From Orbilia blumenaviensis (lineage: Eukaryota; Ascomycota; Orbiliomycetes; Orbiliales; Orbiliaceae), in assembly GCA_036872755.1 (NCBI GenBank), contig JAVHNS010000011.1:682001-746000 (forward strand): a DNA stretch of 64,000 nucleotides, written 5' to 3'. Below the pieces are notes generated by a model. The model saw nothing but the letters and a program-made list of their open reading frames with translations, made no database searches and was not told the DNA's origin. This document shows, piece by piece, positions 9,696-33,981 of this stretch (its first letter is position 1; each line of letters begins with the position of its first letter). The translations under genes and the position numbers were made by a program.

Positions 9696-12600
9696 CCTGC
9701 CTGCTCAGGGAAATATGCAGCCTTGATGCTGCTGGTCAATTGGGCGGTTCTGCTTGGTAGCTGTCCTTGGATGTACCTATACCAGCAATGTTTGTACCCT
9801 CGTCGTCGGACGACCTCTTTTTCGTTGTCGTGAAGGTTTTTGGTGTGGTGTTGTCGGCGTTGTTGTCGTTTCCGTCGGCTTTCGTCTAAAAAGGACAGAA
9901 AAAAAACTGGAAAAAAGAAAAGGAAAGAAAGCGAGAGAAAAGGGATAAGTAGATATTTCGCAGGCCAGAAAGATGTCGGGAACAAGGCGCTGTTGAAAAC
10001 CAGGTATGATTATTTGATGGCGATACCACTGGCTAGGCTGTTGAAAGCCCTTTGGAGAGAATTACCCGAAGATACAAGAGAAAGAAGAAGAGGAAAAAAG
10101 AAAGGGAAATTAAAGTGCTTTTAGAACAGAAGAGAAAATTTTTTGAAATTATCGAACGAAAAAAGATATTCGCTCAGACTAGTTGTCAGTCGAATTTGAG
10201 CTATCTCGACTCCTTATCAAGGGGGCAGCTAACCCCAGAAACGACGAAGAGTAGTACTATAATAGCAGTAAGAAGAACTCTGTCAAATATTTTTTTTAAG
10301 TGCCAATTGAGTCGAGCTAGACAGAGAGAGAAGGAAAAAAAGAAGAGACATGTACAGCGCACTGGTGCCAAAGCGAGGAGCTTAACCCGACGGAAGGCAG
10401 AGAGATGCAGAGATGTGACCACACCGGCAGCTTTTTCGTGAAGTCGTGGCCAATGGCACAGCGAGCGATCCGCCTTTTTGTGCTCTCTCGTGCTTACTTG
10501 AAAGTGCCTTCTATGCTGGCCCCCTGTTTACAACTACGATTCTATATACTGGTGTATCTTCGTTGTTTGCTGCTGCTGCTGGTCGAGTCCCCTGCAGCTG
10601 CCGGCCCCGAAGGAATTAGTTTAGTCCTTATGCAGGTATGTCCGTCTGCACCTCTGAGAAAAGAACAAAAAAAACTGTTGAACTTGACCAGCTTCGGTTG
10701 CCCGGCTCCCGAGTGATATTAAGCTTCTGTTATGCCCATGCTACTGCTGACCCTGCTTATCCCAGAAGCGGTAATTATAAATGTCGTCACGAAGGCGAGT
10801 CCATACGCGTATCCCCCATTTCTAAGCCCCGATGGCTGAATATCAAATATTAACCTATATTAAATATGGAAAAAAGGCTGTAAGCTTTTGGTGACAGGAT
10901 CGATCACATCCTGATGAAGTCATTTGCCCAGGTATTATAACGTTTAACCAGCAAGCCAACAACTTTGGTAGAAAGGGTTATCAAAGGCAATCGTGAAGTT
11001 AAGTGTTCACGAGACACCCTTGTCCGGTCCCATCGGCCCCATCTTGGCTCGTGTCAGTACTACAGCACCTACGTCCTATTACGGTACAAAGAACAGAAGA
11101 AGAAAAGAAGCGCAAAAGCGTTGTTGGATGTGCGGTTCTATCCCGGCCCGGCAACACACAGCTGTGTCGATTGCAAGTCGGGGATTCGAGGCTACTAGCA
11201 CTACCACATTAAGAGGTACCTAGGTAAGCTAGGTACTTACTTACCTACTTACTAAGTAAGTAGCCTATAGATGCCTAGGTAGACAGACAGCTGTGTAGGT
11301 ACATATAGACTAAAGTACTAGGTTAAATGGTATGTAGAAGGGTGTTACAGGTGGAGCCTGCAAGTTTCTTCTCCCTTTCCCGTCGGAAGTCTTTTCTGGC
11401 GAGCTGCAGCTAGCTTCGGAACCGAGTTCTATCGATATCCAACCACCTATCGTCCGATTCCTGTAGCTCGTAGACACTTACCTAATATACATTATACATC
11501 TATATACCGAAGCAGCTCGCTAGAGTAGCTATACCTCTTCGCTCCCCTTCCGTTCCTTTATAATGCTGTACCACTCATAATACCCATTATCGTGGGCTTG
11601 GGCCCTTTTTTTTGAGTTTTTAAATTTTAAACCCTTTTACCGAGGTACGTACCGGTAGACCGAGTTTCAAGGCTGTAACCATCGTACGGTTCTGAGTCGA
11701 GATTGCAATATTGTTCGCTGGGATATACATATTCCTCGTATACGGTGCATAATTAACTTTTTGAGTGCAATGCAAAAATGCAGAATCCTATGTAATTAGT
11801 ACGTAAGGAACTTTGGAATGAGAATTTGCGGAGTAAGAAAAAAGCGCATTTCAGCTAGACCCTCGATCATGCACTGCATCTGGGGTAGATCGAGACATTT
11901 TTATTTTTTTTTGTTGGAAGAAATACGCGTAGATGCTGCTCGGGCACCGCTAAGCCAATAGTGCACATCCATATCATATACCATACCGTCTACGAACTTC
12001 CATACCACAGCCTGCTGACCCTGTCTTGAACTAACTGCTGACCTCTACATTCTTCTCTTTTCCGTTCTTGTATCATTGGGAATCTTTTTTTTTTTTTTGT
12101 GCCACCGTAATATAAGCCTCCCAACATTCCCTACCGACCACACTACCGGCTACTCAGCCCTATCAAAGAACCAAAAATGAAGATCCAGAGAGACAGAATT
12201 GTAAAAGGAATCTCTACACCACGTGCTCTGCGACGTCCCATATCCTCAGAGCTGGTAGCTACTTATGTTTCCTTGGCAGGTTTACTCTTCTCTTCTTTTG
12301 TTATTCATTTATTCCATTGAAGAAACTTCATGAATCTCTAAAAAAAGTATACACATGAATTATGAAGCAACGCCGAATGATCCATCATAGAAGCTAGAGG
12401 AAAAAGGAAACGATAAAGAGCCATGGTTGAGAGAATAGAGAGAGAGGGAGTTTGGATTCGTAATTATAGAGTTTTAAATGTAAATGGGAGACCCTCTAGT
12501 GAAAAAGGCGACGACATAGGAGAAGTGAAAAAAGAGGGGTGTTAAGAAGAAGTATATGTTCTTCCCACTCGGTCTACTTATATAGCCCATGCTCCTTTTC

Positions 12601-12873
12601 TCCTCCAATCCATCGCATCTTCCAGCTTAGGTCGAATCTCTTCGGGGGAGTTTCGTAGGCTTGTCGGTTAAACAAGTTCGTTCATATGTCGGTATCGTAA
12701 TAAAAGGTGAGAAGTTGAATAGATATATCAATCCTCTCTTCCTCCTTCTCCATCCTCTAAAAAAATAAAAAATAAAAAAAAGAGCGATCCACCTCAGCCA
12801 TTCCCATCCAAAAAGACCTTATAAACCAAAATGCTCCAGTCTTTCCTTCAAAGAAAAAAACACCACCACCCGC
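9696..12873. promoter_or_regulatory. Long spacer holding the HMG-CoA reductase promoter
   Basis: About 3.2 kb between the start of HMG-CoA reductase (-) and the stop of eS21 (-). The first kilobase next to the reductase is C/T-rich on the coding strand and is the likely promoter and 5' UTR. Around 11215-11282 there is a cluster of TACCTAGGTA/TAAGTAAG-type palindromic words. A T run lies near 12087-12098. No gene with a recognisable domain; one 47-codon ATG frame at 12177 is listed separately. The eS21 3' UTR should lie just left of 12873. Confidence 0.5.
12177..12320 (+). CDS. Possible 47-residue small ORF, unverified
   Basis: An ATG preceded by AAAA (favourable A at -3) opens a frame of 47 codons. 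The N-terminus is basic (MKIQRDRIVKG..RALRRP). It ends in a hydrophobic segment (YVSLAGLLFSSFVIHLF) that could span a membrane. I recognise no family. Against it: it is short, lies in a low-complexity spacer, and the hydrophobic tail may simply reflect a T/C-rich stretch. Listed because it could be a small membrane peptide or the first exon of a spliced gene. Confidence 0.15.
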   Translation: MKIQRDRIVKGISTPRALRRPISSELVATYVSLAGLLFSSFVIHLFH

Positions 12874-13226
12874 TTAACGCTGCCTTGTGGCCGTCCAAAC
12901 ATTCTTCAACAGTCCATCGCGCTGAGCAAGTCGGTTGAAGGAGTCATCAGCCTCCCCACGAGACCTGACGAAACCGCAGAGGGCATAGGTGATGTGTTCG
13001 CCGGTGGCACGGCCGTTCTCGTCGACTTTGGCAACGGAGATCTGGACGGAGGCGTGGTCCTTGGCCTTGATGATACGGTTGGTGGCAGAGCACTTGCGTG
13101 GGACGTAACTGTAGAGGTTGTCGAGAAAATGTCAGAATTCATCGCTCTCTATCATATTTTGATCCTGAGGGTTTAAATGGAGCTCTATACGCACAGGTCG
13201 ACGAGTTGTCCTTGATCGTTTTCCAT
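12874..13226 (-). CDS. RPS21: 40S ribosomal protein eS21
   Basis: Two exons, 13226-13195 and 13108-12874, give 88 residues; the yeast protein has 87. Exon 1 encodes [11 protein letters not shown] and exon 2 continues with [20 protein letters not shown]. Later blocks such as [20 protein letters not shown] and the C-terminal NVWTATRQR fit eS21 closely. It is a structural protein of the small ribosomal subunit with a role in pre-rRNA maturation. The 86-base intron has the less common GTGCGT donor and a CTACAG acceptor, after codon 10 plus two bases. Such early introns are common in fungal ribosomal protein genes. It is divergent from murD, with 1087 bases between the starts. Confidence 0.95.
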
Positions 13227-14313
13227 TTTGACGGATTTTTGTTAAATTAGACCGGTAAAGTCGTTTATTTGGTTGGAGTTTTTTAGGTAGGGAGGTTGAT
13301 TGGAGGCTTTGGAAGTCGTCGGGAAGCACGGGATATTGAAGCTTTGAGGATGGATTTACTAGGAAGTAATTTTTGTGTCTAAGCAAATTTGGAGGGAACG
13401 GTCGATAAAAAGAGCAGTCACAGGAAAAACGGAAATTTTGGGACAGGCAAACGTGTGTTGGGGGCTGCAACGCTTTGATGACAGACCTTCGTGGTCTCTC
13501 CTAATCGAGCGATACAACAGGGTCAACACATAAACTACATCTGCTATGATTTACCATCTAAAGTTCAGACGCGACCCTTTAGTTCCGAAATCTTATATTA
13601 CCAAGACTGTGCTAAGAGCCAACTAATTATATGGCTACGAGGGGGGAATTAGTTTATTTCGCAGAATTGATATATATTACAGCGTATCATGGGACGAAAT
13701 AAATTAGATGCTTGGGTATTTGCTAGGTATCTGCAGATTCAGTAACTTTCGGCCAAAAAAGGCTTGAATGAAGCCGCTGGACTTATAAAGCATATGCAAA
13801 TAAAGAATTATATCCAAGTGGTCTCTACCATAGTCGAATCGCTGCGATCAATTTTCCAGGCGGGAAATATTTTCAAACACGATTTACGAGGCTGGGCTCT
13901 AGGGTATACCGCTGAAATTTTATGTACAGTGGAATGATTGCAGATATATAAATTAATTGAAAATCGAGATTGAAGCTTGATATTAGCCTATTGGTGTACA
14001 GTACTGCTTCCTCGACCATATTAAGCGTGATTGATGGAGCACGTTGATACACCAAGAACGAAGCATATCGCAGACCTGAACTGTACTACGCCACCACAAC
14101 CGCCGTCAAAGCCTCAAATAACTTGACATTATTCCTTGCGTTGCTTATCACAGTGCTGGCCAGGAACGACGTCACACATTCAACCCCTTGCATCGCATTC
14201 TCACCTTCCCCGCGCGGCCTGAAAACGGTGCGCCAATCTAAAAAAAAATTACCTCATCGTTTAGGACCCGAGACCCGCGTGTTTTACATCACAAATCCCA
14301 TCACATATCAACC
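13227..14313. promoter_or_regulatory. Divergent spacer between eS21 (-) and murD (+)
   Basis: About 1.1 kb with the eS21 promoter on the left and whatever drives murD on the right. The right end (14080-14313) is C-rich and ends in a eukaryote-like start context, ATATCAACC before the murD ATG (A at -3). There is no Shine-Dalgarno site. The middle (13550-14000) is AT-rich with only short frames. I see no transposase, direct repeat or tRNA marking an insertion point. Confidence 0.5.
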
Positions 14314-15672
14314 ATGACAAACCTCGTAGTCCTCGGCGGCGGCGAAAGCGGCGTAGGGACAGCAGTCCTGGGCAAAACGCAAGGGTTCACCGTCTTCCTC
14401 TCCGACGCCTCCAAAATCACAGACGCCTACAAATCCATCCTTCTTCAATACAATATCCCCTTCGAAGAAGGCGGACACACCGAATCCAAAATTCTAGCCG
14501 CAGACCTTGTAATGAAAAGCCCAGGAATTCCATATACAGCACCCATAATCCAAAAGCTACAACAGCAAAACACTCAAATAATCTCAGAAATCGAATTCGT
14601 AGCTACTCGTGGTGATTACCAGACGATAGGGATTACAGGCTCTAACGGAAAGACAACAACAACGCTATTAACTCACCACCTTCTCACAACCGGCGGTCTA
14701 ACCTTTGGAATTGGCGGTAATATCGGTACAAGCTATGCTCTCCAAGTCGCCCAAAACCCAACCATGCCTTATGTTCTCGAATTATCGAGTTTTCAACTCG
14801 ACGGGATAGATACCTACAGGCCAAATATCGCAGTAATCACAAATATCAGCCCAGACCACCTTGATAGATACGAATACAAATACGAAAACTACGTCGCCTC
14901 GAAGTTTCGGATTACGATGAACCAGGGAGCGGACGATTATTTGATATACGATGCGGATGATGTGGAGAGTTGCAACTGGTTGAATAAGAATAAGACGTTG
15001 GCGGTGTTGCTTCCGTTTTCGATTAAACGGAAAATAGATACTGGGGCGTATTTGACGGAGGATGGGAAGAGCATTGTGGTTAACGTCGGTAACCAAGCCG
15101 GGGAGATCGTAATTGGTACCAGGGATATATCGCTGGAAGGGAAACACAATTATAAGAACGCAATGGCAGCGGTTGTAATCGCCAAACTGCGGAATGTCGA
15201 CGATTCGCTAATCCGCTCGGGGCTCAAAAGCTTTAAAGGGGCGGAACACCGACTAGAGAAGGTTTTGAATGTAAGTGGGGTGCAGTATATAAACGACTCA
15301 AAGGCCACGAATGTGAATTCGGTATTCTATGCGCTGGATTCTATGAAGACGCCAACGGTATGGATTGTGGGAGGGGTGGACAAAGGGAACGACTACAGTG
15401 AGATTTTTGATTTGGTGAAAGAGAAGGTTAAGGCTATTGTTTGCTTAGGGGCTAACAATGCAAAAATTATTAATGCATTTGGAAGTGTGGTGAAGACCTC
15501 GAAGATTGCTGAGGCTGGTAATATGGTGGATGCTGTGAAGCTGGCTCGGGGATTTGCAGAGGAAGGGGAAGTGGTACTGCTCTCGCCGGCGTGTGCGAGC
15601 TTTGATTTATTTAAGAGTTACGAGGATAGAGGGAGGCAGTTTAAGGATGCCGTACATAAACTGCAAGAATAG
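14314..15672 (+). CDS. murD: Bacterial-type UDP-N-acetylmuramoyl-L-alanine--D-glutamate ligase (MurD), intronless
   Basis: 452 residues in one open frame, the normal length for MurD. In bacteria it adds D-Glu to UDP-MurNAc-L-Ala using ATP, in cytoplasmic peptidoglycan precursor synthesis. The full set of ligase signatures is present: N-terminal GGGESGVG (8-15), ATP loop GSNGKTTTT (109-117), ELSSFQLD (156-163), DHLDRY (181-186), the Lys of the ASKF motif at 197 (carbamylated in MurD), GKHN (277-280 region), NDSKATN (327-333), DKGNDY (356-361), SPACASFDLF (424-433) and EDRGRQFK (437-444). The N-terminal UDP-binding, central ATPase and C-terminal domains are therefore all complete. The wording is most like Bacteroidota MurD (from memory of the family, not a search). 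It has no introns, unlike most neighbours, but starts in a fungal-like context. murC follows on the same strand. Very unusual in a fungus; see findings. Confidence 0.95.
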   Translation: MTNLVVLGGGESGVGTAVLGKTQGFTVFLSDASKITDAYKSILLQYNIPFEEGGHTESKILAADLVMKSPGIPYTAPIIQKLQQQNTQIISEIEFVATRGDYQTIGITGSNGKTTTTLLTHHLLTTGGLTFGIGGNIGTSYALQVAQNPTMPYVLELSSFQLDGIDTYRPNIAVITNISPDHLDRYEYKYENYVASKFRITMNQGADDYLIYDADDVESCNWLNKNKTLAVLLPFSIKRKIDTGAYLTEDGKSIVVNVGNQAGEIVIGTRDISLEGKHNYKNAMAAVVIAKLRNVDDSLIRSGLKSFKGAEHRLEKVLNVSGVQYINDSKATNVNSVFYALDSMKTPTVWIVGGVDKGNDYSEIFDLVKEKVKAIVCLGANNAKIINAFGSVVKTSKIAEAGNMVDAVKLARGFAEEGEVVLLSPACASFDLFKSYEDRGRQFKDAVHKLQE

Positions 15673-15925
15673 ATCCGCATGAAGGCTCAAAATTACAAAA
15701 TAAATATTCTTGGAAAGTTTTTGAAAATTCGAAAATCTCGATCTAGTGAAGTCAGCTATTTCTGTAGCTCATTCTCCGAGGCAAATGTTGGTATCTCCTG
15801 GACCTGACCGGACAGGTAAAACTTTAAAGTTTAAAATTGTCCACATTCAGACAGCTGCATAATCGATAATCTCGAACATGGCATGCATATAGAAAGCCAG
15901 CCACAAATCGAAATCTTTTATCTTC
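15673..15925. promoter_or_regulatory. Spacer between murD and murC
   Basis: 253 bases, AT-rich, including a TTTAAAGTTTAAAATTG stretch at about 15822-15838. It is too long and has no ribosome-binding site for bacterial translational coupling, so murC probably has its own transcript. The likely murD 3' UTR and a short murC promoter are inferred from position. Confidence 0.4.
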
Positions 15926-17410
15926 ATGCAACAAAATCAACACTCCTCGCCATATTATTCAATAGAATCCGAACCGACGACAAGGATCATATCGCGTACC
16001 CACTATTACTCGGTCCCGTCCAATAGTGTGCCCCACGCCGAGAAAGAAAGGATGGATTTAGGCCAAATACAGAACGTCTACTTTATTGGCATCGGCGGCA
16101 TTGGTATGAGCGCGTTGGCACGATATCTCAAGTACACTGGCAGAAATGTGATGGGATACGACAAATCTCCCACGCAGTTAACACAAAAACTGGAAGAGGA
16201 GGGTATTTCGGTCCATTACGAAGACAAGATTAATAATATTCCGGAGTATTTCACCAAAGAAAACACTCTAGTAGTTGTTACACCGGCTGTTCAAAAGTCC
16301 CATACAGAGTGGAAATACTTTGTGCAAAACTCGTATCCAATAAAAAAACGGGCGGAAGTGCTTGGTATCGTTACAAAAGAGACATACTGTTTTGCTGTCG
16401 CTGGAACCCATGGAAAAACTACGACCTCAAGTATACTGGGCCATATATTATTCGAGTCAGGGGTAGAAGTCACGGCGTTCGTAGGCGGGATTGTTGAGAA
16501 CTACGGCTCGAATCTGATTGGAAATGGCACTAAAGTAACGGTTGTAGAAGCCGACGAGTTTGATCGGTCGTTTTTGCAGCTATATCCGGATGTTGCATGT
16601 ATAACGTCTATAGATGCCGACCATCTTGATATATACGGAGATAAAGATTCAATTGAGGCTAGTTTCCGGGAATTTGCAAGTAAAGTGGAAGATAGAAACC
16701 GACTATTCGTCGCAGAGGGTGTCCCGCTTGATGGGCATACTATCTCAGTTGGGGGAAGTGCAGAATTTAGCGCATCAAATATCAGAATTGAAAACGGACA
16801 ATACCTATTCGATGTTAAGACACCTGAAGGAGCAATCCCGGACCTACGATTCAAACTTCCGGGTCGACATAACCTCAGTAATGCGCTAATGGCACTCGCT
16901 ATGGCCACTTCATTTGGGATTCCGACCAGTCACATACGGAAGGCACTTGTTTCTTTCAATGGTATCAAACGCCGTTTTTCATACCAAATCAAAAGCGACT
17001 CCCTAGTTTACATAGACGATTACGCCCATCATCCAACAGAAATCGATGCAGTTCATCACGCAGTCCGAGAGCTGTATCCGGGGAAAGAGGTCCTGGCGGT
17101 CTTTCAGCCCCATTTATTTAGTCGGACGAAAGACTTCGCGGACAATTTTGCGAAAAGTTTATCGAATTTCGATCGGGTTTTTCTGCTAGACATTTACCCA
17201 GCAAGAGAACATCCAATGGAAGGGGTCACGTCTGGATGGCTGCTTTCTAAGATGGAGAATCCAAAAAAGAGGCTGGTCACTAAAGCAGAGCTGATAAATG
17301 CGATAATCAAGAGTAGACCTCAGGTTGTGGTAACATTGGGAGCTGGGGATATAGGTGAAATGGTCTCGGGTATAAAAGTGGCGCTGCTCGAATGGAGTGC
17401 CAATTCATAA
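15926..17410 (+). CDS. murC: Bacterial-type UDP-N-acetylmuramate--L-alanine ligase (MurC), intronless
   Basis: The frame from 15926 gives 494 residues. The part matching bacterial MurC begins at Met43 (ATG at 16052, MDLGQIQNVYF) and is 452 residues, a normal length. That ATG has A at -3 and G at +4, whereas the ATG at 15926 has T at -3, so 16052 may be the main start. In bacteria MurC joins L-Ala to UDP-MurNAc with ATP, the step before MurD. Signatures, numbered from Met43: GIGGIGMSALARY (13-25), ATP loop GTHGKTTTSS (118-127), EADEFDRSF (166-174), DADHLDIYG (188-196), GRHNLSNAL (271-279), RRFSYQI (307-313), DDYAHHPTEI (322-331), FQPHLFSRT (351-359) and TLGAGDIG (428-435). All look intact. Resemblance is strongest to Bacteroidota MurC (inference from memory). 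The 42-residue extension (YSIESEPTTRIISRTHYYS region) matches no MurC part I know. Confidence 0.94.
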   Translation: MQQNQHSSPYYSIESEPTTRIISRTHYYSVPSNSVPHAEKERMDLGQIQNVYFIGIGGIGMSALARYLKYTGRNVMGYDKSPTQLTQKLEEEGISVHYEDKINNIPEYFTKENTLVVVTPAVQKSHTEWKYFVQNSYPIKKRAEVLGIVTKETYCFAVAGTHGKTTTSSILGHILFESGVEVTAFVGGIVENYGSNLIGNGTKVTVVEADEFDRSFLQLYPDVACITSIDADHLDIYGDKDSIEASFREFASKVEDRNRLFVAEGVPLDGHTISVGGSAEFSASNIRIENGQYLFDVKTPEGAIPDLRFKLPGRHNLSNALMALAMATSFGIPTSHIRKALVSFNGIKRRFSYQIKSDSLVYIDDYAHHPTEIDAVHHAVRELYPGKEVLAVFQPHLFSRTKDFADNFAKSLSNFDRVFLLDIYPAREHPMEGVTSGWLLSKMENPKKRLVTKAELINAIIKSRPQVVVTLGAGDIGEMVSGIKVALLEWSANS

Positions 17411-17664
17411 GGTTTAGCTGTTTGAAACGAGATTATTTACGATGCGGGGATATGATGTTTATTTCTATTATAATTGGACATGACCCGAAGTCTAGAAACT
17501 TAGGGTAGTCTAGCATTAATAGTTCATTTGAAATCTTGGACTACCTACACGCAACCTCTCCCGTAGAGATATTGTAAAATGTATCCTATAACCTGCGCAG
17601 GCTAGGAAGAGTATTTGCCATCTTTTCCAAAACCCGAAACCCAGGCGATCGCGGGACAATGGTA

Positions 17665-18475
17665 CTATATAATCTCTAGGCTAGTCGCGGTGGAAATATT
17701 GAGCCTGTTGATACGAGTGACATGTGGCGCCCAAGGCCCGAAGGTAGGATCATTGTGAAAAGCCTTAAGAAACACACCTTTCCCACAACTGCAAATTGGG
17801 GATACTCCTACTTTCAAACTTGGTGTAGAGAGTGGGATTTTGCTATGTTGAAAATACTCGCAGTCTCGCTTGTGCTCCCACATTCTGCATCTTTCAACCG
17901 GTCCGGCGGTAAGTTGCATCCATGCAGATGTTTCTCGACGGGTACCTTTGATGTCCATCAAGTTTGCTGCATTATCAAGTAGAATAACTTTTTCATCCAT
18001 TGAGTTATTATCTAATGGGATGATATAGCAATCGGCAACAATACTCTGCCCTGAAAAATCAAGGCAAAGTTACTTCATGTATACGAGCAAGAACCCACCT
18101 ACGGTTGGATTTGTGAGCACAAAGAAGGAACCTTGGTTTTGAAGAATCCCTGGTTAATTATCATGGAGTAAATAGTATCTCTCACGTCTGAGAGCGTTTT
18201 GTTGAGCTTCGTGGCTTTGCTAGCCCGCTTGATGTTGTCAATATTCTTAGAAGCCTGAGGGCCCGAAGGAAACCTTGTAGACCCTACCGTTTTCGTAATA
18301 TTCAGAAAACGAAGGCAAAAAGGTGGTATGGATCCACTCGTAAGTATCGGTACCGGTATATCGTACTTATGCATGTCTATAAGAACTGGAGGTGATTTAT
18401 CAAGATTGATCGGGTGCATACCCCATGAAGCAATGCTCCGAAGTCTCTGGAACGAGTATTTATGCACAGTCGAAG
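17665..18475 (-). pseudogene. Broken fungal gene of unknown function, 5'-truncated and frameshifted
   Basis: Read on the minus strand. The upstream part, about 18475-18135, encodes PINLDKSPPVLIDMHKYDIP and later NIKRASKATKLNKTLSDVR, but has no ATG at its head. Near 18135-18150 the reading frame has to change to reach GSFFVLTNPTVG. That second frame splices well: donor G|GTGGGT (exon edge 18099), 48-base intron, acceptor CAG|GG (exon edge 18050). It continues QSIVADCYIIPLDNNSMDEK and ends ICSCGKGVFLKAF...APHVTRI before the stop at 17665. The splice junction and continuous sense suggest a real gene that lost its start and suffered an indel. The tail faintly recalls fungal MYND-type proteins, but I cannot assign a family. 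It lies 254 bases past murC on the opposite strand. Confidence 0.4.
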
Positions 18476-18776
18476 TCTAGTCTGTGTGCGAGACAAATAG
18501 CTAAATAGGTCCCCATAAAGGGATTCGATTTTTTTTTTTTGAATTCCAAGTTTCTACTACATTTCAATGCACTTATTGATTATTGGCTATTATCTACAGT
18601 TGTGCTCATCGATTAATATTTTGATCCGCTTCCTAAATTAAACTCTTTTTGTCTATATGAAGCTGTATGACTGTATATTGCTAATTACCAGAGTATTAAT
18701 TAATTCGATACCATAATTCCCCTTATTGGTATCCCGAAATACCGACCTGTTAGTTGACCGGCTTGAGACCTGGGTT
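18476..18776. other. Short AT-rich spacer, nothing recognised
   Basis: About 300 bases between the broken gene and the 3' end of the first F-box gene. It includes a T run at about 18531-18540. No frame or signal worth naming. Confidence 0.5.
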
Positions 18777-20075
18777 CTATAAAACCCAAGTTCCATTTAA
18801 TTGCAAAAACTTGTCAGGGTGGTATAACAATACATGAAAAGCGAAATCATGCGCAGAGAAGCTCACTTTGGAATATGCTCGGTATGTCGGGCTGGTTATA
18901 TTGGTGCATATACTGCAATTGCTGTTATATACCCCGAAAGAAGTCAAGCGGTTGGTCACAAGCGTGTAAATCCATGGCCATCCTTGGGTAGCGGTATGAT
19001 AAGACCGTATGTGAGGAGGATAACCTTCCGCTTGTCGTTCTTGGCCAAAAATAATGCTAAATGCGGTTTTTGCTGTCCCCTCAATCCAAAGCTGGGTGCA
19101 TCTGTCAGACTGCCCTTCTGTTGGCGGTGATAGGTTTGAGATACACCTCCGAAGTTGTCTGCGCTTCCGCTCGCTCTCCCAGAATAGTTTTAGGTTGTTC
19201 AGGGAGATAAGATGTGAGATTTCTGGCTCTAGATATCTACGATATTCTGCCACAATACTGTTAAAGATCTTCTTACTGACTGCGTCGTAGTAGTCCCGTG
19301 TTTCCTTAGGGGTTGCTAAAGGGCGGATATCGTCGAAGTAAGGATGCTTGGCTGAGACATCTTTCCATTGAGCATTGTGAAGAAGCTCGACTTCCCGTTG
19401 AACATCTGGACGCCAGTAGCAGACCTTTTGGTATGGCCTAGAAGGGCCTGGGCCCATCCTAGCTAACTCGTAACCGCACATTGCGTGGAAAGAATAGAAC
19501 TTGGTAACATCAAGGTTGGGAATTTTTCTGACTACGTCGGCGACTGTATCCTCATATAAGCTTAAATAGCAGAACTCAAGGGCCCTAGGGTTTTTTCTAG
19601 CATCAGGTTACTGTTTGAATGGAAGGGGCAACGTACGGATAATGTTTTCGTCCACACATCTCACACAGACTGTCTTAAGTCTCCCCCAATCCTTCCTCTC
19701 GATTCCACACTTTGGCTTCAAACAAACTTGACATGTTGATTTGATGCCCCCAGACATTGCTTTGACGACATACTTGCGATAATCATAAGTTTCGCTGAAT
19801 TTTTGGAACCTTTTTAGGTTTCGGTGGCCGAAGCAGTACCAAAAATATTGTGAACCAGCAAGCTTGGAATGCATAGCTTTGTTCACGGAACTCAACTGGA
19901 CAGCATTATATGCGTCTGGTAAATAGCATGTTACCTGCATTAAAATTTCCAAGGGAATATTTTCTATTGTGGGTTTGGGGCGAGCAAGATACTCTAGAGG
20001 TTCCGCATTAGCTTCTGTAGATAACTTATTAAAGTCGCAGAGGAATTTATTTGAGTCAGGGCTTTTGAGAGCCAT
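18777..20075 (-). CDS. F-box/zinc-ribbon protein, paralogue A of a tandem pair
   Basis: Two exons, 20075-19637 and 19543-18777, give 401 residues. The splice (C|GTACGT ... ATACAG|TC) was chosen because the same position and phase works in the neighbouring paralogue and yields matching protein (NII-LADVVRKIPNLD here). An F-box-like segment lies at about 39-75 (PLEILMQVTCYLPDAYNAVQ, ending near GSQYFWYCFG). It is followed by a C-x2-C-x18-C-x2-C zinc ribbon (CQVC...CVRC). The C-terminus has a second Cys/His cluster (CSIC ... HDFAFHVLLYHP). Such proteins usually recruit targets to SCF ubiquitin ligases; the target is unknown. Its stop lies about 300 bases from the broken gene. Confidence 0.75.
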
Positions 20076-22976: not shown

Positions 22977-25427
22977 ATGAATACTGTATGCAATCACGAT
23001 CTGCCGGCGTCTACTTCCACTCTGGACATTAAGATTTCTCACCTTGCACAACCCTATGGGTATGGTACTTTCCGGTCTTTAATACCAAACAGTTTCTTAT
23101 TTTGATAAGTTAATTAACATTAACTCTGCAGCGTCAAACTTCCGGTCCGTCCTGAGCTACAGCCCAGGCTCTTCAACCACTCTACATTACCAATTTCAGT
23201 GTTCACAAAACATTTCGTAACCAATTACATCTTCAACATTCCACTTCCATGGGTCGGATCCCAGGCAATTCGCTTAACCTCGGATTCACTGGTTTCACAT
23301 GGCTCCGATCCCGAACAGCAATATACGATTCTCCCAGCAATCATCCGTTCAACACCATACCTTTTGCCGGTACTGGTTACAGATGATATAAACCAGGCGA
23401 TATTTTCTCTGGGCATTTACATCCCTGAATCCCTCTTGAAAGACATCGATGGGGTAATATCCACCACTGGGGTAGATAGTATTGTGTGTATAACACCTAG
23501 TGTGAGGATCCAGAACAAATTACCGAATTTTAATTGGATTAAGCCCCCATATGGAAATAAGGGAATGGGGGTCGTACTCGAAGTTTTCTCTGGAAAACTT
23601 GACGGTGGGTATGTGGGAGAGCTCTATTGTGGACCCGGATCAATCTACAACGAGGCTTGGAGAGCTAAAGGAATAAATGGAAGGGGCCCGACGACAATGG
23701 TAGCCATGAAGGGAGTCAAGAAAGCTATGGAGACACTCGAAATGGCGAGAAAGAGGCACGGATATCCTGTATCCTTCGCAGCCATCGGATTGAATTGCCA
23801 AGAACTACTCGAAGGCTTCGAAGGGTGGGATGAGGAAGGTGCGACTACGACGTTTCGAAAAAGAGGTCCGTGGAAAGAGGTTTTTGAGCTGTTGTGGGTA
23901 ACTAAGAAACGTGGAGTCAAGATCGAATTGTTCCGCTTGCGTAAGGAGAGGGAGGATATGTTAAAAGAAATGTTGGGGAGACGATTAAGCTTGAAAGAGC
24001 GGGTGATTGAAACAAACCGCGAGAACTCACCTCTAGTGGAAGGCTCGACACAGCACGCCTTGTACCCGCATTCTTTGGAACATAAGCCTTTGACCTCGAC
24101 TGAGAGAATCATTACGAAGGACGACGTTTTAGAGGCGTTACCAAAAGGGGTCCTAGATGATTCTACAGTTAACAAAGACCTAGCGTTGAGGCGAAGTCCA
24201 AGACAACGAAAGCGACACTGTCGGGGTAAAGAAGGGACGGGAGGAATGTCGTTGGGATTATCTTCGCGACGAATTTCGAATGTGGACGAAAATACCAAGA
24301 ACAGAACCCAGAACCCAGAATCCAGAGCCGGTCACGAGGATTCTGGCTGGGCCAAAGGTTATTGCAGCACCAACTTACCTAATGGAGGGGATTCGATTTT
24401 ACTATATAAAGAAGAAGAGGCGGATCTCGTCGATGCCAGGGAATGGAAACGGATGCTTAACATGCATATTAGGACTGGAAACCCTTTGCAATACCCATGG
24501 GCCCCTACGGACAAATATTGCAGTACCGAGGAGAGAAATGGAAAGCCAATAGGTGTGGAGGATGAATTTTCCGAACGAGCAATAGATCCGTGGTCCCAAT
24601 TCCAGCACGATGTCCAGTCGTTTCAAGAAGAATTCGGCATTGATATGTCCTATGAAGACGAGGACAGTGATGAGGACAGTTATTCCGTGGATATGTCTAT
24701 GGATGGTTTAAGTGATGATAGCCCGGGTGCTCGACTTCCACGGCTATATAGGTCTGCGGGGCCTTCACCGGAGAGTATGGACGGTATCAAGACACCACCA
24801 GTCTATTTCCGTGAAAATGCAAATGGGGTTGAATTTTTGAAACGGGAGAGACTAGAGTTAGAGATGCCGGAGTTGGAGATTGAGAGAACAGGAATGTGTG
24901 AGATTGAGGTACCTGTTCAGGTTGAAGCGCGCGGGAGAAACACCTTTTCACGACGTGTAGCCCTTTATGATGCTTCAGAAGCTATGAACACCAAACATGA
25001 TGATACATGGACTTTGGAAGAGCTACAGACGATTGGTGAACTTATAGAGGATTCATACGAGCAGGATGGAGATGCAGATGATGAAGGGGAAAACAAGATT
25101 TGCTTACAACCTAATACTTACTCTCAAAGGAGGGACAGATCACGGTCATTATCACGGTTGAGAAGAGGGATTGAAGATGTGAAACTTGGTATTATGGCTA
25201 TTCCGGAGGGACACAAGACAGAGAAAATACTTAAGAAGGGCTCGAGAAGCCCAATTAAGCGGCTAACTAAAATTCCAGGAAGTCCAGTTAAAAAGAGAAG
25301 AGATTCTAGAAGCCCAGTCAAGAGACTTACCATTTCGTCTGGGACTGGGAAACCAGTTGATCGCAATATGGCTTTTAAGGGACTTTCAAGGGCGATTTCT
25401 GACGGGTACGAATTAATCGAACATTAA
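22977..25427 (+). CDS. Unknown 792-residue protein with C-terminal Ser-Pro-x-Lys motifs
   Basis: Two exons, 22977-23059 and 23132-25427, joined by GTATGG ... CTGCAG. They give 792 residues starting MNTVCNHDLPAS. The first ~270 residues look globular (FTKHFVTNYIFNIPLPWVG, then NGRGPTTMVAMKGVKKAMET). The middle is low-complexity and charged. The last 70 residues carry three SP[IV]K motifs (about 734-762) in a basic context, which fits the minimal CDK site S-P-x-K and a possible nuclear signal. Acidic runs (YEDEDSDEDS) lie near 540. I do not recognise the family; the fold of the N-terminal part is unknown to me. It could be a rapidly evolving nuclear protein. Confidence 0.75.
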
Positions 25428-31788: not shown

Positions 31789-33981
31789 TTAACTCTGAAT
31801 CAACAACTGATAACCGTCCAATTGAGCTTTTTTCATCACGCAGTCTAAACAAGAGTTCCCCTGAAATAATGAACGAGCTCCTTGAATGCCGACGAGGTAC
31901 TGCGCAACGCTGTTTTTGTGAACCGAAGCTACGGAAAGTCTGCCTCTGCTGGCAAGTGGGGCCTCGACCCCAGTCGCAACGATACTGTTTGCATCATATG
32001 GTGGGGGAGGGGATGTGTTCCGCACGTGGTGGCAAGGTGGGGCAATAGTTGTACTCATATACGCCATTTGAAGGGCGTAGAAACTGAGATTGATCATCCT
32101 GCCCCCAACTTCAACAGATGTTCGCAGTCCAAATGCGCTATGGTACGGCCTCGCTGTCAGAACGAGCTTATCGTGCACTCCAAGCGCAGATAGGCAAATT
32201 TTTCCATTTTGCTGAAGCGAACGTTCAGCTTCAGGGCGAGGAGGAATATTTGCGTCTTCGATGAGAGCCTTATAATAATTTACTCCATCATGGTACTGGC
32301 CGTCAAGAAGAATATAGCGGACCATTGTTGATTCGTCAAAGGCAACTTTTAGCAGCGTAGCCGGAAATATAGCCGTTGAGCCGTTGCATGTGCCAATGAC
32401 TGTTTGCCCAGCACCCGCGTTCGCTGACTTGGAGTCAAGCATTTCACAAAGATCGGTATGGAGGTCGGTGACCGAATATTCCTCGGCGTCAGCGGCAAGG
32501 TGTTTTGAGCCTGGAGCAGATTGTTGAACTTTCGCGATTACACGATTGCAGAAAAAACGGCCCGCTTTGATATTTGGGTACTGCAGCAACCTGATTGAAC
32601 TGCACCTGATATCAACGAATGACAGTAGGATCGCGTACCCAATAATTGGCTGTAGTCCCGCCCAGATACTACGGACATAGCAATCGTCTCTCTTGCTGGA
32701 CAAGTCATCCCAATGATACGAATTCGGACACCCACCACAAGTGCATTCGGAATCGGGAAGAATCTCCACAACCGCGGTGCGTAGATTTTGGTACGCAAGG
32801 CCCACATCAAAGTTGTTAATCTCTAGCTCGACTCCGAATAGCAAGGACAACTGATCTCGGAGGTGATGATCGGCCAAATTCCCAAGAAGGGCCCGAAGAC
32901 CGCCATCTGGGAGATCCGACCCATGCCCGCAATCAGAAGCCTTGAAGCTGTGGAAAATTGCACCGACAAGATTGCCTAGAGAAACAACGACCTGACGCTC
33001 GGACCGTATCACACGATGGCTAAAAAGAAGCTCTACCATGCTCCGAAGGCAAGCTTCTTTACCCACCGTCAGGCGATCAAACCCCGAGATTCTCCCCGGT
33101 TGGCCTAAAAAATCATCTTTTCGTAAACCTACTGGCGAGACTACTGGATCATTCTGGTCAGAGCTTTGAATGACCCTCTCTTGTGATATCTGCAGTCTCT
33201 TCCCATGGACCACCGAAATTATAATCGATCTTCTGGGGCCCCGGAATATCACCTCGTTCTCAACCAGGAGCAAGACATCGTCTCGGCAAAGTCCAGTGAA
33301 GAGAGCGGCAAGAGTGCCAATTCCTCCGAATCCTTCGATACGCAAAGTGGTCGTCCCATCTGGGTCTAGAAGTGCAGCCCGAGCTTTATCCAGGATATCT
33401 ACCATGGAATCAACGGAAATTCGATCCACGAGGGAGGCCGAATCTCGATGGATATCGATACCCGTATCACGATACACCTCTCGAATCCGAGTCACCTGCT
33501 CAGCTTGGTGCTGCCCAAATTGCACGGCTTTCATCTTGTGCGACACAATCTCGCAAAGGTCTGAAAGATGCTCAATGCTGGAGAGATGGTGGCTTTTTGG
33601 TAGGATCTTCTTAGAGAGATCAAATAGAATATGGCCGGCCATATTCCTGCAGCACATCTCGACGAGGCAGACTGTCAACAAAGATGAAGCTTGCCCCCCA
33701 GCCGTCTGCGACAAGGCCCAGGTAGAGTCTCCCCCCATCCAGCCAACAGATACTTGGAGATTCCGCAGTTTGAAGGATCCTGACCTCGTGAGTGCACCCA
33801 AAGTTTTGTCTGCAAGTGGTCCACTCATAGGAAATTTAGAACCTATCGCCTCGAGTTGGTACACCGCAAGGGGGTCGACACCATCAGTGGATAGTGCCTT
33901 AAGGACTGGTAATAGGGATCCCAATGCGCTAATGGCACCAGTGATATCTACTTGAAATCCGATAGGCCCATGGTCTGGCAT
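31789..33981 (-). CDS. Unknown 730-residue intronless protein
   Basis: One long open frame with a true ATG at 33981 (MPDHGPIGFQVDITGAIS). The N-terminal 100 residues read like a small helical domain (ITGAISALGSLLPVLKALS) followed by SVGWMGGDSTWALSQTAGGQ. A Gly-rich FGGIGTLAALFTG stretch lies near 230. Around 460-510 there is a Cys-rich segment (CTCGGCPN) and a hydrophobic run (IIGYAILLSFVD). The C-terminus has APPCHHVRNTSPPPPYD. I do not recognise the family. Length and absence of stops argue strongly for a real gene. It is divergent from the dioxygenase-like gene at 34946, with 964 bases between starts, so they may share control. Confidence 0.75.
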   Translation of the reverse strand: MPDHGPIGFQVDITGAISALGSLLPVLKALSTDGVDPLAVYQLEAIGSKFPMSGPLADKTLGALTRSGSFKLRNLQVSVGWMGGDSTWALSQTAGGQASSLLTVCLVEMCCRNMAGHILFDLSKKILPKSHHLSSIEHLSDLCEIVSHKMKAVQFGQHQAEQVTRIREVYRDTGIDIHRDSASLVDRISVDSMVDILDKARAALLDPDGTTTLRIEGFGGIGTLAALFTGLCRDDVLLLVENEVIFRGPRRSIIISVVHGKRLQISQERVIQSSDQNDPVVSPVGLRKDDFLGQPGRISGFDRLTVGKEACLRSMVELLFSHRVIRSERQVVVSLGNLVGAIFHSFKASDCGHGSDLPDGGLRALLGNLADHHLRDQLSLLFGVELEINNFDVGLAYQNLRTAVVEILPDSECTCGGCPNSYHWDDLSSKRDDCYVRSIWAGLQPIIGYAILLSFVDIRCSSIRLLQYPNIKAGRFFCNRVIAKVQQSAPGSKHLAADAEEYSVTDLHTDLCEMLDSKSANAGAGQTVIGTCNGSTAIFPATLLKVAFDESTMVRYILLDGQYHDGVNYYKALIEDANIPPRPEAERSLQQNGKICLSALGVHDKLVLTARPYHSAFGLRTSVEVGGRMINLSFYALQMAYMSTTIAPPCHHVRNTSPPPPYDANSIVATGVEAPLASRGRLSVASVHKNSVAQYLVGIQGARSLFQGNSCLDCVMKKAQLDGYQLLIQS

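Follow-up and report, generated by a model that had tools for sequence, protein, structure and literature searches.

We report the analysis of a 64,000-nucleotide window, positions 682001–746000 of the 1,832,565-base contig C11, from the genome of the Orbiliomycete fungus Orbilia blumenaviensis (42.46 Mb in 23 contigs), which carries two adjacent genes, murD and murC, for ligases of bacterial peptidoglycan synthesis. Fungi do not build a peptidoglycan wall. With a MurB–MurA pair and a MurE gene located on two further contigs, the genome encodes five consecutive steps, MurA to MurE, as open frames; the reactions of these families comprise the formation of UDP-N-acetylmuramic acid (UDP-MurNAc) followed by stepwise addition of amino acids. 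The coordinates of all features discussed are collected in Table 1.

The murD–murC pair and its distribution in Orbiliaceae

The sequence-only reading of the window had described full-length MurD and MurC genes on the same strand, and both proteins indeed pass the equivalog cut-offs of their families in profile scans. MurD reaches 385.7 bits against TIGR01087 (curated cut-off 211.95) with residues 4–448 of 452 matched, and the Mur_ligase_M, Mur_ligase_C and two MurD N-terminal models all exceed their Pfam cut-offs; MurC reaches 370.2 bits against TIGR01082 (cut-off 335.1). Solved structures of MurD and of MurC align to the respective window proteins over nearly their entire length. The identity of the MurC gene is thereby upheld and the start first assigned to it is not: because homology begins at about residue 43 of the 494-residue frame opening at 15926, and because the protein measures 452 residues in the protein database and 447–451 residues in five fungal orthologs, position 16052 is more likely to be the true start. 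The 42 further open codons upstream of it (15926–16051), either an N-terminal extension or open by chance, probably lie outside the MurC enzyme. Both genes had also been read as intronless, a claim that holds in so far as the open frames are uninterrupted, which is its sole basis; GTRAGT splice-donor-like sites, of which the window contains 46 compared to a mean of 51.3 in shuffled sequences, show no excess and are uninformative on introns.

Alignment of the MurD sequences reveals that K113, K197, D328–N333, D356–D360 and S424–D431 are conserved in 7/7 fungi; the ATP- and substrate-site motifs of MurD we take to be the P-loop GSNGKTTTT, the carbamylated lysine, DSKATN, DKGND and SPACASFD. The MurC stretches GTHGKTTT, EADE, HLDIY and DDY.HHP.E are likewise conserved in all six fungal sequences. 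Among the columns that are invariant in 23 bacterial rows, 103 of 110 are kept in all seven fungi for MurD and 74 of 78 in all six for MurC. In variable columns, all fungi share the commonest bacterial letter at 111 of 313 positions in MurD and at 171 of 363 in MurC.

Examination of related species, which had been suggested as a check, identified MurD orthologs in six other Orbiliaceae (Arthrobotrys conoides, Orbilia oligospora, A. flagrans, O. javanica, A. musiformis and A. megalospora) and MurC orthologs in five (A. conoides, A. flagrans, A. megalospora, O. javanica and A. musiformis). The MurD orthologs are 67–74% identical to the window protein and outrank the bacterial sequences, whose best identity among the matches listed is 65%; the MurC orthologs, with 75–77% identity, outrank them as well, the last one narrowly (762 vs. 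760 bits), the best bacterial identity among the matches listed being 74%. Counting O. blumenaviensis, MurD is known in seven species, MurC in six and MurA, described below, in six. The murD and murC locus tags are consecutive (e.g. TWF506_000340 and 000341) in 5/5 species for which both are listed, and the MurD–MurC pair is therefore conserved. Contigs bearing the fungal orthologs reach 8.3 Mb.

The origin of the pair was analyzed in quick trees with long outgroup branches, comprising for MurD 7 fungal rows, 39 of the 113 other rows listed and 4 outgroups, and for MurC 6 fungal rows, 40 of the 114 other rows listed and 4 outgroups. The fungi are monophyletic in both (support of 100 each in the Shimodaira–Hasegawa-like approximate likelihood ratio test). 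Fungal MurD is nested in Flavobacterium-type rows and forms a group (96) with five of them, including Flavobacterium sp. MAH-1 and F. selenitireducens. The fungal MurC clade is likewise surrounded by Flavobacterium-type rows, although its tree gives it no firm position and has a weak fork (75) at the root; the top-scoring bacterial MurC proteins among the matches listed include those of F. silvaticum, MAH-1 and F. selenitireducens. As to gene order, murD precedes murC on the same strand in 4/4 picked loci from the phylum of a Flavobacteriales genome, and in one scanned bacterial locus ftsW, murG and one further open reading frame (ORF) separate the two. These sequence comparisons support a long-ago transfer of the MurD–MurC block from a bacterium into an ancestor of these Orbiliaceae, where it would then have been kept; a single transfer of a cluster piece whose middle was later lost fits the arrangement.

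Table 1. Features of the window and of the other loci discussed (window positions count from its first nucleotide; L numbers denote extracted loci)
Feature	Sequence	Position	Strand	Remarks
murD, UDP-N-acetylmuramoyl-L-alanine--D-glutamate ligase	window	14314..15672	+	single open frame, 452 aa, no internal stop
Spacer, murD stop to likely murC start	window	15673..16051	none	379 bp
murC, UDP-N-acetylmuramate--L-alanine ligase	window	16052..17410	+	452 aa; open frame from 15926 = 494 aa
MurB (345 aa) and MurA (469 aa)	contig C16	L008:3031-5773		adjacent, same strand, gap 295 bp
MurE	contig C6	L009:4446-6005	-	519 aa, one open frame
Asp/Glu/hydantoin racemase family locus (PF01177)	contig C2	L010:1474-1971	-	matches no solved structure, MurI included
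Ribosomal protein S21e gene, part	window	12877..13131	-	fungal flank; PF01249 119.9 bits, cut-off 25
Possible F-box protein	window	19611..20075	-	fungal flank, weak; F-box-like 21.8 bits, below cut-off 24.3

Concerning the surroundings of the pair, the ribosomal protein gene that had been recognized on one side is solid, whereas the F-box genes reported on the other were over-called, the score of the candidate lying below the family cut-off (Table 1). Neighbours farther out encode a 3-hydroxy-3-methylglutaryl-coenzyme A reductase with a sterol-sensing domain, a Spa2-domain protein and a purine/cytosine permease. A scan for repeats and target-site duplications revealed no direct repeats of at least 18 nucleotides at 12500–19000, and one imperfect inverted pair that is not meaningful. 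Two ORFs of the window (23199–25427 and 31789–33981), each encoding more than 700 residues, have no Pfam match at an E-value of 0.001.

That these genes stem from contamination or from a chimeric assembly has nothing in its favour except how surprising they are, and we reject this explanation, the probability of which we regard as practically negligible. Near-identity to one bacterium together with bacterial flanks had been named as the signs of such an artefact; what is found is bacterial identity of at most 65% (MurD) and 74% (MurC) among the matches listed, and flanks that are fungal. Moreover, the orthologs in other species, their consecutive locus tags and the size of the contigs that bear them all speak against it, as does the GC content at third codon positions (GC3), which at 0.52 for murD and 0.43 for murC is close to the 0.525 of the one host gene measured (FolC-type). 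That the genes passed from a bacterium to the fungus and that both frames were retained, as first proposed, is thus supported by the orthologs, by the single fungal clade in each tree and by the conserved invariant columns.

The MurB–MurA pair, MurE and the later steps

The MurB–MurA pair on contig C16 came to light when the whole genome was searched for EPSP-synthase and MurB domains. MurB passes two equivalog cut-offs (TIGR00179, 189.4 vs. 144.5 bits; NF000755, 334.5 vs. 277 bits). For MurA, six other fungal rows from five species are found among the matches listed, with 86–87% identity and O. oligospora represented twice, the best bacterial identity among them being 72% and that of the best named bacterium, Candidatus Saccharimonadales, 71%. 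The MurA tree was built from 7 fungal rows, 40 of 113 other rows, 3 loci and 2 outgroups; in it the fungal sequences are monophyletic (100) and nested in a bacterial group (98), at the end of a long branch of 0.93 changes per column; the named relatives are Saccharimonadales/Saccharibacteria, nearly all annotated as UDP-N-acetylglucosamine 1-carboxyvinyltransferase. Fungal MurA has retained the enzyme domain and is devoid of the N-terminal helix-turn-helix borne by most of the listed bacterial MurA proteins, a domain that suggests a bacterial MurA that also binds DNA. All 36 columns invariant in 26 bacterial rows are kept in six fungi, and 224 of 364 variable columns carry the commonest bacterial letter in all of them.

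The best MurB identity, 57%, is to two Patescibacteria (379 genomes searched, 303 with a match); the searched phylum was taken as Patescibacteria, and its central genome has a 51% MurA match. A midpoint-rooted MurB tree places 5 of the 15 loci together with the two fungal rows, which are monophyletic (100/99). The second fungal row is an O. oligospora gene model of 689 residues (TWF173_003538, P0247) that fuses the neighbouring MurB and MurA, probably an annotation artefact. With this cut model as one of two fungi, 66 of the 70 columns invariant in 15 bacterial rows are kept, two of the four changed columns sitting at its cut end, and 94 of 261 variable columns share the commonest bacterial letter. 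In 3/3 Patescibacteria loci (L070, L071 and L072) the MurB match is followed, some 1.7 kb farther downstream and in the same orientation, by a MurA match, and in the scanned locus L070 (L070:6604-10646) the glyA gene for serine hydroxymethyltransferase is placed between the two on the opposite strand. The bacterial gene order is thus retained in both fungal pairs, murD–murC and murB–murA, and the latter appears nearest to Saccharibacteria/Patescibacteria. An amino acid permease gene, a type not exclusive to fungi, is found near the pair.

The MurE protein also passes its cut-offs (TIGR01085, 472.5 vs. 257.3 bits; NF001126, 508.1 vs. 373 bits) and carries a DNPR stretch, presumably the diaminopimelate (DAP) signature. 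Its highest identity among the matches listed is 41% in the 379 Patescibacteria genomes (345 with a match) and 44% in 395 Bacteroidota genomes (394 with a match); comparison with six loci, at 33–38%, is uninformative on the donor. When compared with 29 bacterial rows, MurE shares the commonest letter in 167 of 349 variable columns and keeps 29 of the 30 invariant ones. A gene for a tetratricopeptide-repeat protein, not exclusive to fungi either, lies within 10 kb. The case for the MurE and MurB–MurA loci being fungal consists of contigs of 2.47 and 1.22 Mb and of the MurA orthologs in other species. A single donor for the whole set finds no support, since the closest bacteria are Patescibacteria in the case of MurA and MurB and Flavobacterium in that of MurC and MurD, and MurE shows the two values given above. 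Likely donor groups can thus be proposed from sequence similarity for four of the five genes, most firmly for MurA and MurD.

The remaining steps were sought by six-frame domain searches of the same genome, which heavily spliced or very divergent genes may escape. The Mur ligase middle domain (PF08245) has four matches in the whole genome, namely MurD, MurC, MurE on contig C6 and, on contig C12, FolC (295.7 bits, cut-off 162.65); no MurF was found by this search. No D-Ala ligase (Ddl) was detected, the five PF07478 matches falling in carbamoyl-phosphate synthases and a biotin carboxylase, and no MraY, the one split PF00953 locus being nearest to eukaryotic dolichyl-phosphate GlcNAc-phosphotransferase (221 bits) and weakly MraY-like (29 bits). 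Among these look-alikes of Ddl, MraY and FolC, match L014 shares one long frame with L013. If belonging to the peptidoglycan pathway is defined by the presence of MurF, D-Ala-D-Ala ligase and MraY, the genome of O. blumenaviensis falls outside it.

Possible products and uses of the five steps

We consider it probable that bacterial genes were transferred and that they provide an active route to a UDP-MurNAc-peptide in the fungus; that the Mur enzymes are made and active is what their conserved sequences suggest. Unless the pathway was under selection, the gain of consecutive steps from different donors is difficult to account for. An ancestor of these Orbiliaceae would have acquired a piece of a Flavobacterium-type cell-wall cluster, of which murD and murC were kept and the intervening genes lost, a murB–murA piece from a Saccharibacteria-like bacterium of the candidate phyla radiation (CPR), and murE from what is perhaps a third source. 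UDP-N-acetylglucosamine, the chitin precursor that fungi make, would be converted with phosphoenolpyruvate to UDP-MurNAc in the cytosol by MurA and MurB; MurC would then add L-Ala, MurD D-Glu and MurE perhaps a third amino acid. The route would end before MurF and MraY with a soluble UDP-MurNAc-peptide. Without MurF and MraY, no lipid I, murein or peptidoglycan would be formed. Taken at face value, the gene set would thus carry the fungus as far as UDP-MurNAc, the dipeptide derivative and perhaps the tripeptide derivative, and not to peptidoglycan.

Several observations weigh against an active route of this kind. No source of D-glutamate was found in the genome, which has one PF01177 locus only (Table 1), nor was DapF, for which the same search is positive in 9 of 14 control genomes; D-Glu and meso-DAP would therefore have to come from elsewhere, possibly from digested bacteria or prey. 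MurA stays below the equivalog cut-off of TIGR01072 (276 vs. 392.7 bits), for which reason it is not filed as a member of that family, and narrowly below that of NF006873 (291.8 vs. 297 bits). In MurE, which has been seen in a single genome, that of O. blumenaviensis, the one searched for it, the one changed invariant column replaces R414 by P; this stretch, as we assume, adjoins the pocket for the third residue, and the change may bear on the residue that MurE adds. As to the distribution, neither the MurC of O. oligospora nor the MurA of A. flagrans is among the 120 matches listed for each, and MurB of other Orbiliaceae is seen only inside the fused O. oligospora gene model. Finally, the assignment of MurB compares Patescibacteria with just two loci from beyond that phylum, both of Bacteroidota and 24–26% identical.

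Part of the same evidence would also suit a repurposing, in which the Mur-type ligases and the enolpyruvyl transferase would have come to use a different sugar nucleotide or peptide in the metabolism of the fungus. The lack of a detected D-Glu or DAP source, the long branch leading to fungal MurA and its score under the equivalog cut-off point in this direction, as does the occurrence among the solved relatives of the MurA-like NikO, an enzyme of nucleoside antibiotic synthesis. Five consecutive enzymes that keep nearly all invariant columns argue for the original substrates instead, and we hold a change of substrate to be improbable. We regard as slightly less probable still that the fungus hands UDP-MurNAc-tripeptide to an endohyphal bacterium in which MurF, Ddl, MraY and the remaining steps are retained. 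We know of no obligate symbiont in these nematode-trapping fungi, which speaks against such a partnership, whereas a host with MurA to MurE and without MurF, Ddl and MraY displays the split that a hand-off would need. Transferred genes of the mealybug are described as complementing the wall pathway of its symbiont (PMC9116674), and diverse bacteria are reported to live inside A. musiformis, one of the mur-bearing species (PMC10860758); by the same account they are diverse, variable and partly culturable, so that they probably possess whole pathways of their own.

Returning to the soluble UDP-MurNAc-peptide as end product, we think that its most likely use is in a muropeptide-like compound which the fungus itself secretes or attaches to its wall, for instance as a bacterial food mimic for nematodes; this is a guess, to which we give well below even odds. 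Bacterial peptidoglycan has been described as a food signal in Caenorhabditis elegans (PMC11021419). Taken as one proposal, a working cytosolic pathway put together from genes of a Flavobacterium, of a CPR bacterium and possibly of a third donor, and serving a purpose other than peptidoglycan in the form of a fungal muropeptide that might mimic nematode food, is put forward tentatively and with less than even confidence.

Comparison with known systems and significance

Mur ligase homologs of eukaryotes are known from plastids, and such enzymes (e.g. the MurE-like PAP11) are among the best solved matches to fungal MurE; plant and algal Mur genes were inherited with the plastid, unlike an uptake by a fungus. 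Compared with the Flavobacterium-type division and cell wall cluster, which has the same two genes in the same order and on the same strand in the four picked loci and supplies the nearest relatives, fungal murD and murC stand alone, 379 bp apart and with GC3 near that of the one measured host gene. Similarly, the murB-(glyA)-murA arrangement of Saccharibacteria/Patescibacteria is the same in order and strand in the three loci, whereas the fungal pair has no glyA in its 295-bp gap and its MurA no helix-turn-helix. Insects provide a known example of peptidoglycan genes that entered an animal genome: the mealybug Planococcus citri likewise has transferred peptidoglycan genes in the host, which are reported to complement those of its symbionts' genomes (PMC9116674). 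The present case differs from it by the fungal host, a set limited to MurA–MurE, the absence of a known partner bacterium and one likely CPR donor.

Among the matches listed in the open-licence literature, which omits most subscription papers and all bioRxiv preprints, none was seen to describe fungal mur genes. Covering 23 genomes of nematode-trapping fungi, a survey published in 2024 describes 36 transferred genes, mostly of bacterial origin, in a main text that does not contain the word peptidoglycan (PMC11481490). What appears to be new is a five-step, mosaic and truncated peptidoglycan-precursor pathway in fungi. Cultures and genome sequences of Orbiliaceae exist, and some of these fungi are amenable to genetic manipulation, so that they are open to direct testing. 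Muramic acid serves as a marker of bacteria, a rule that UDP-MurNAc-peptides in a fungus would, if true, break; they would moreover represent a new class of fungal metabolites, made by enzymes otherwise known as bacterial drug targets. The set would also offer a clean case of a pathway assembled step by step through transfer, with donors that are unrelated to each other and include a member of the CPR radiation.

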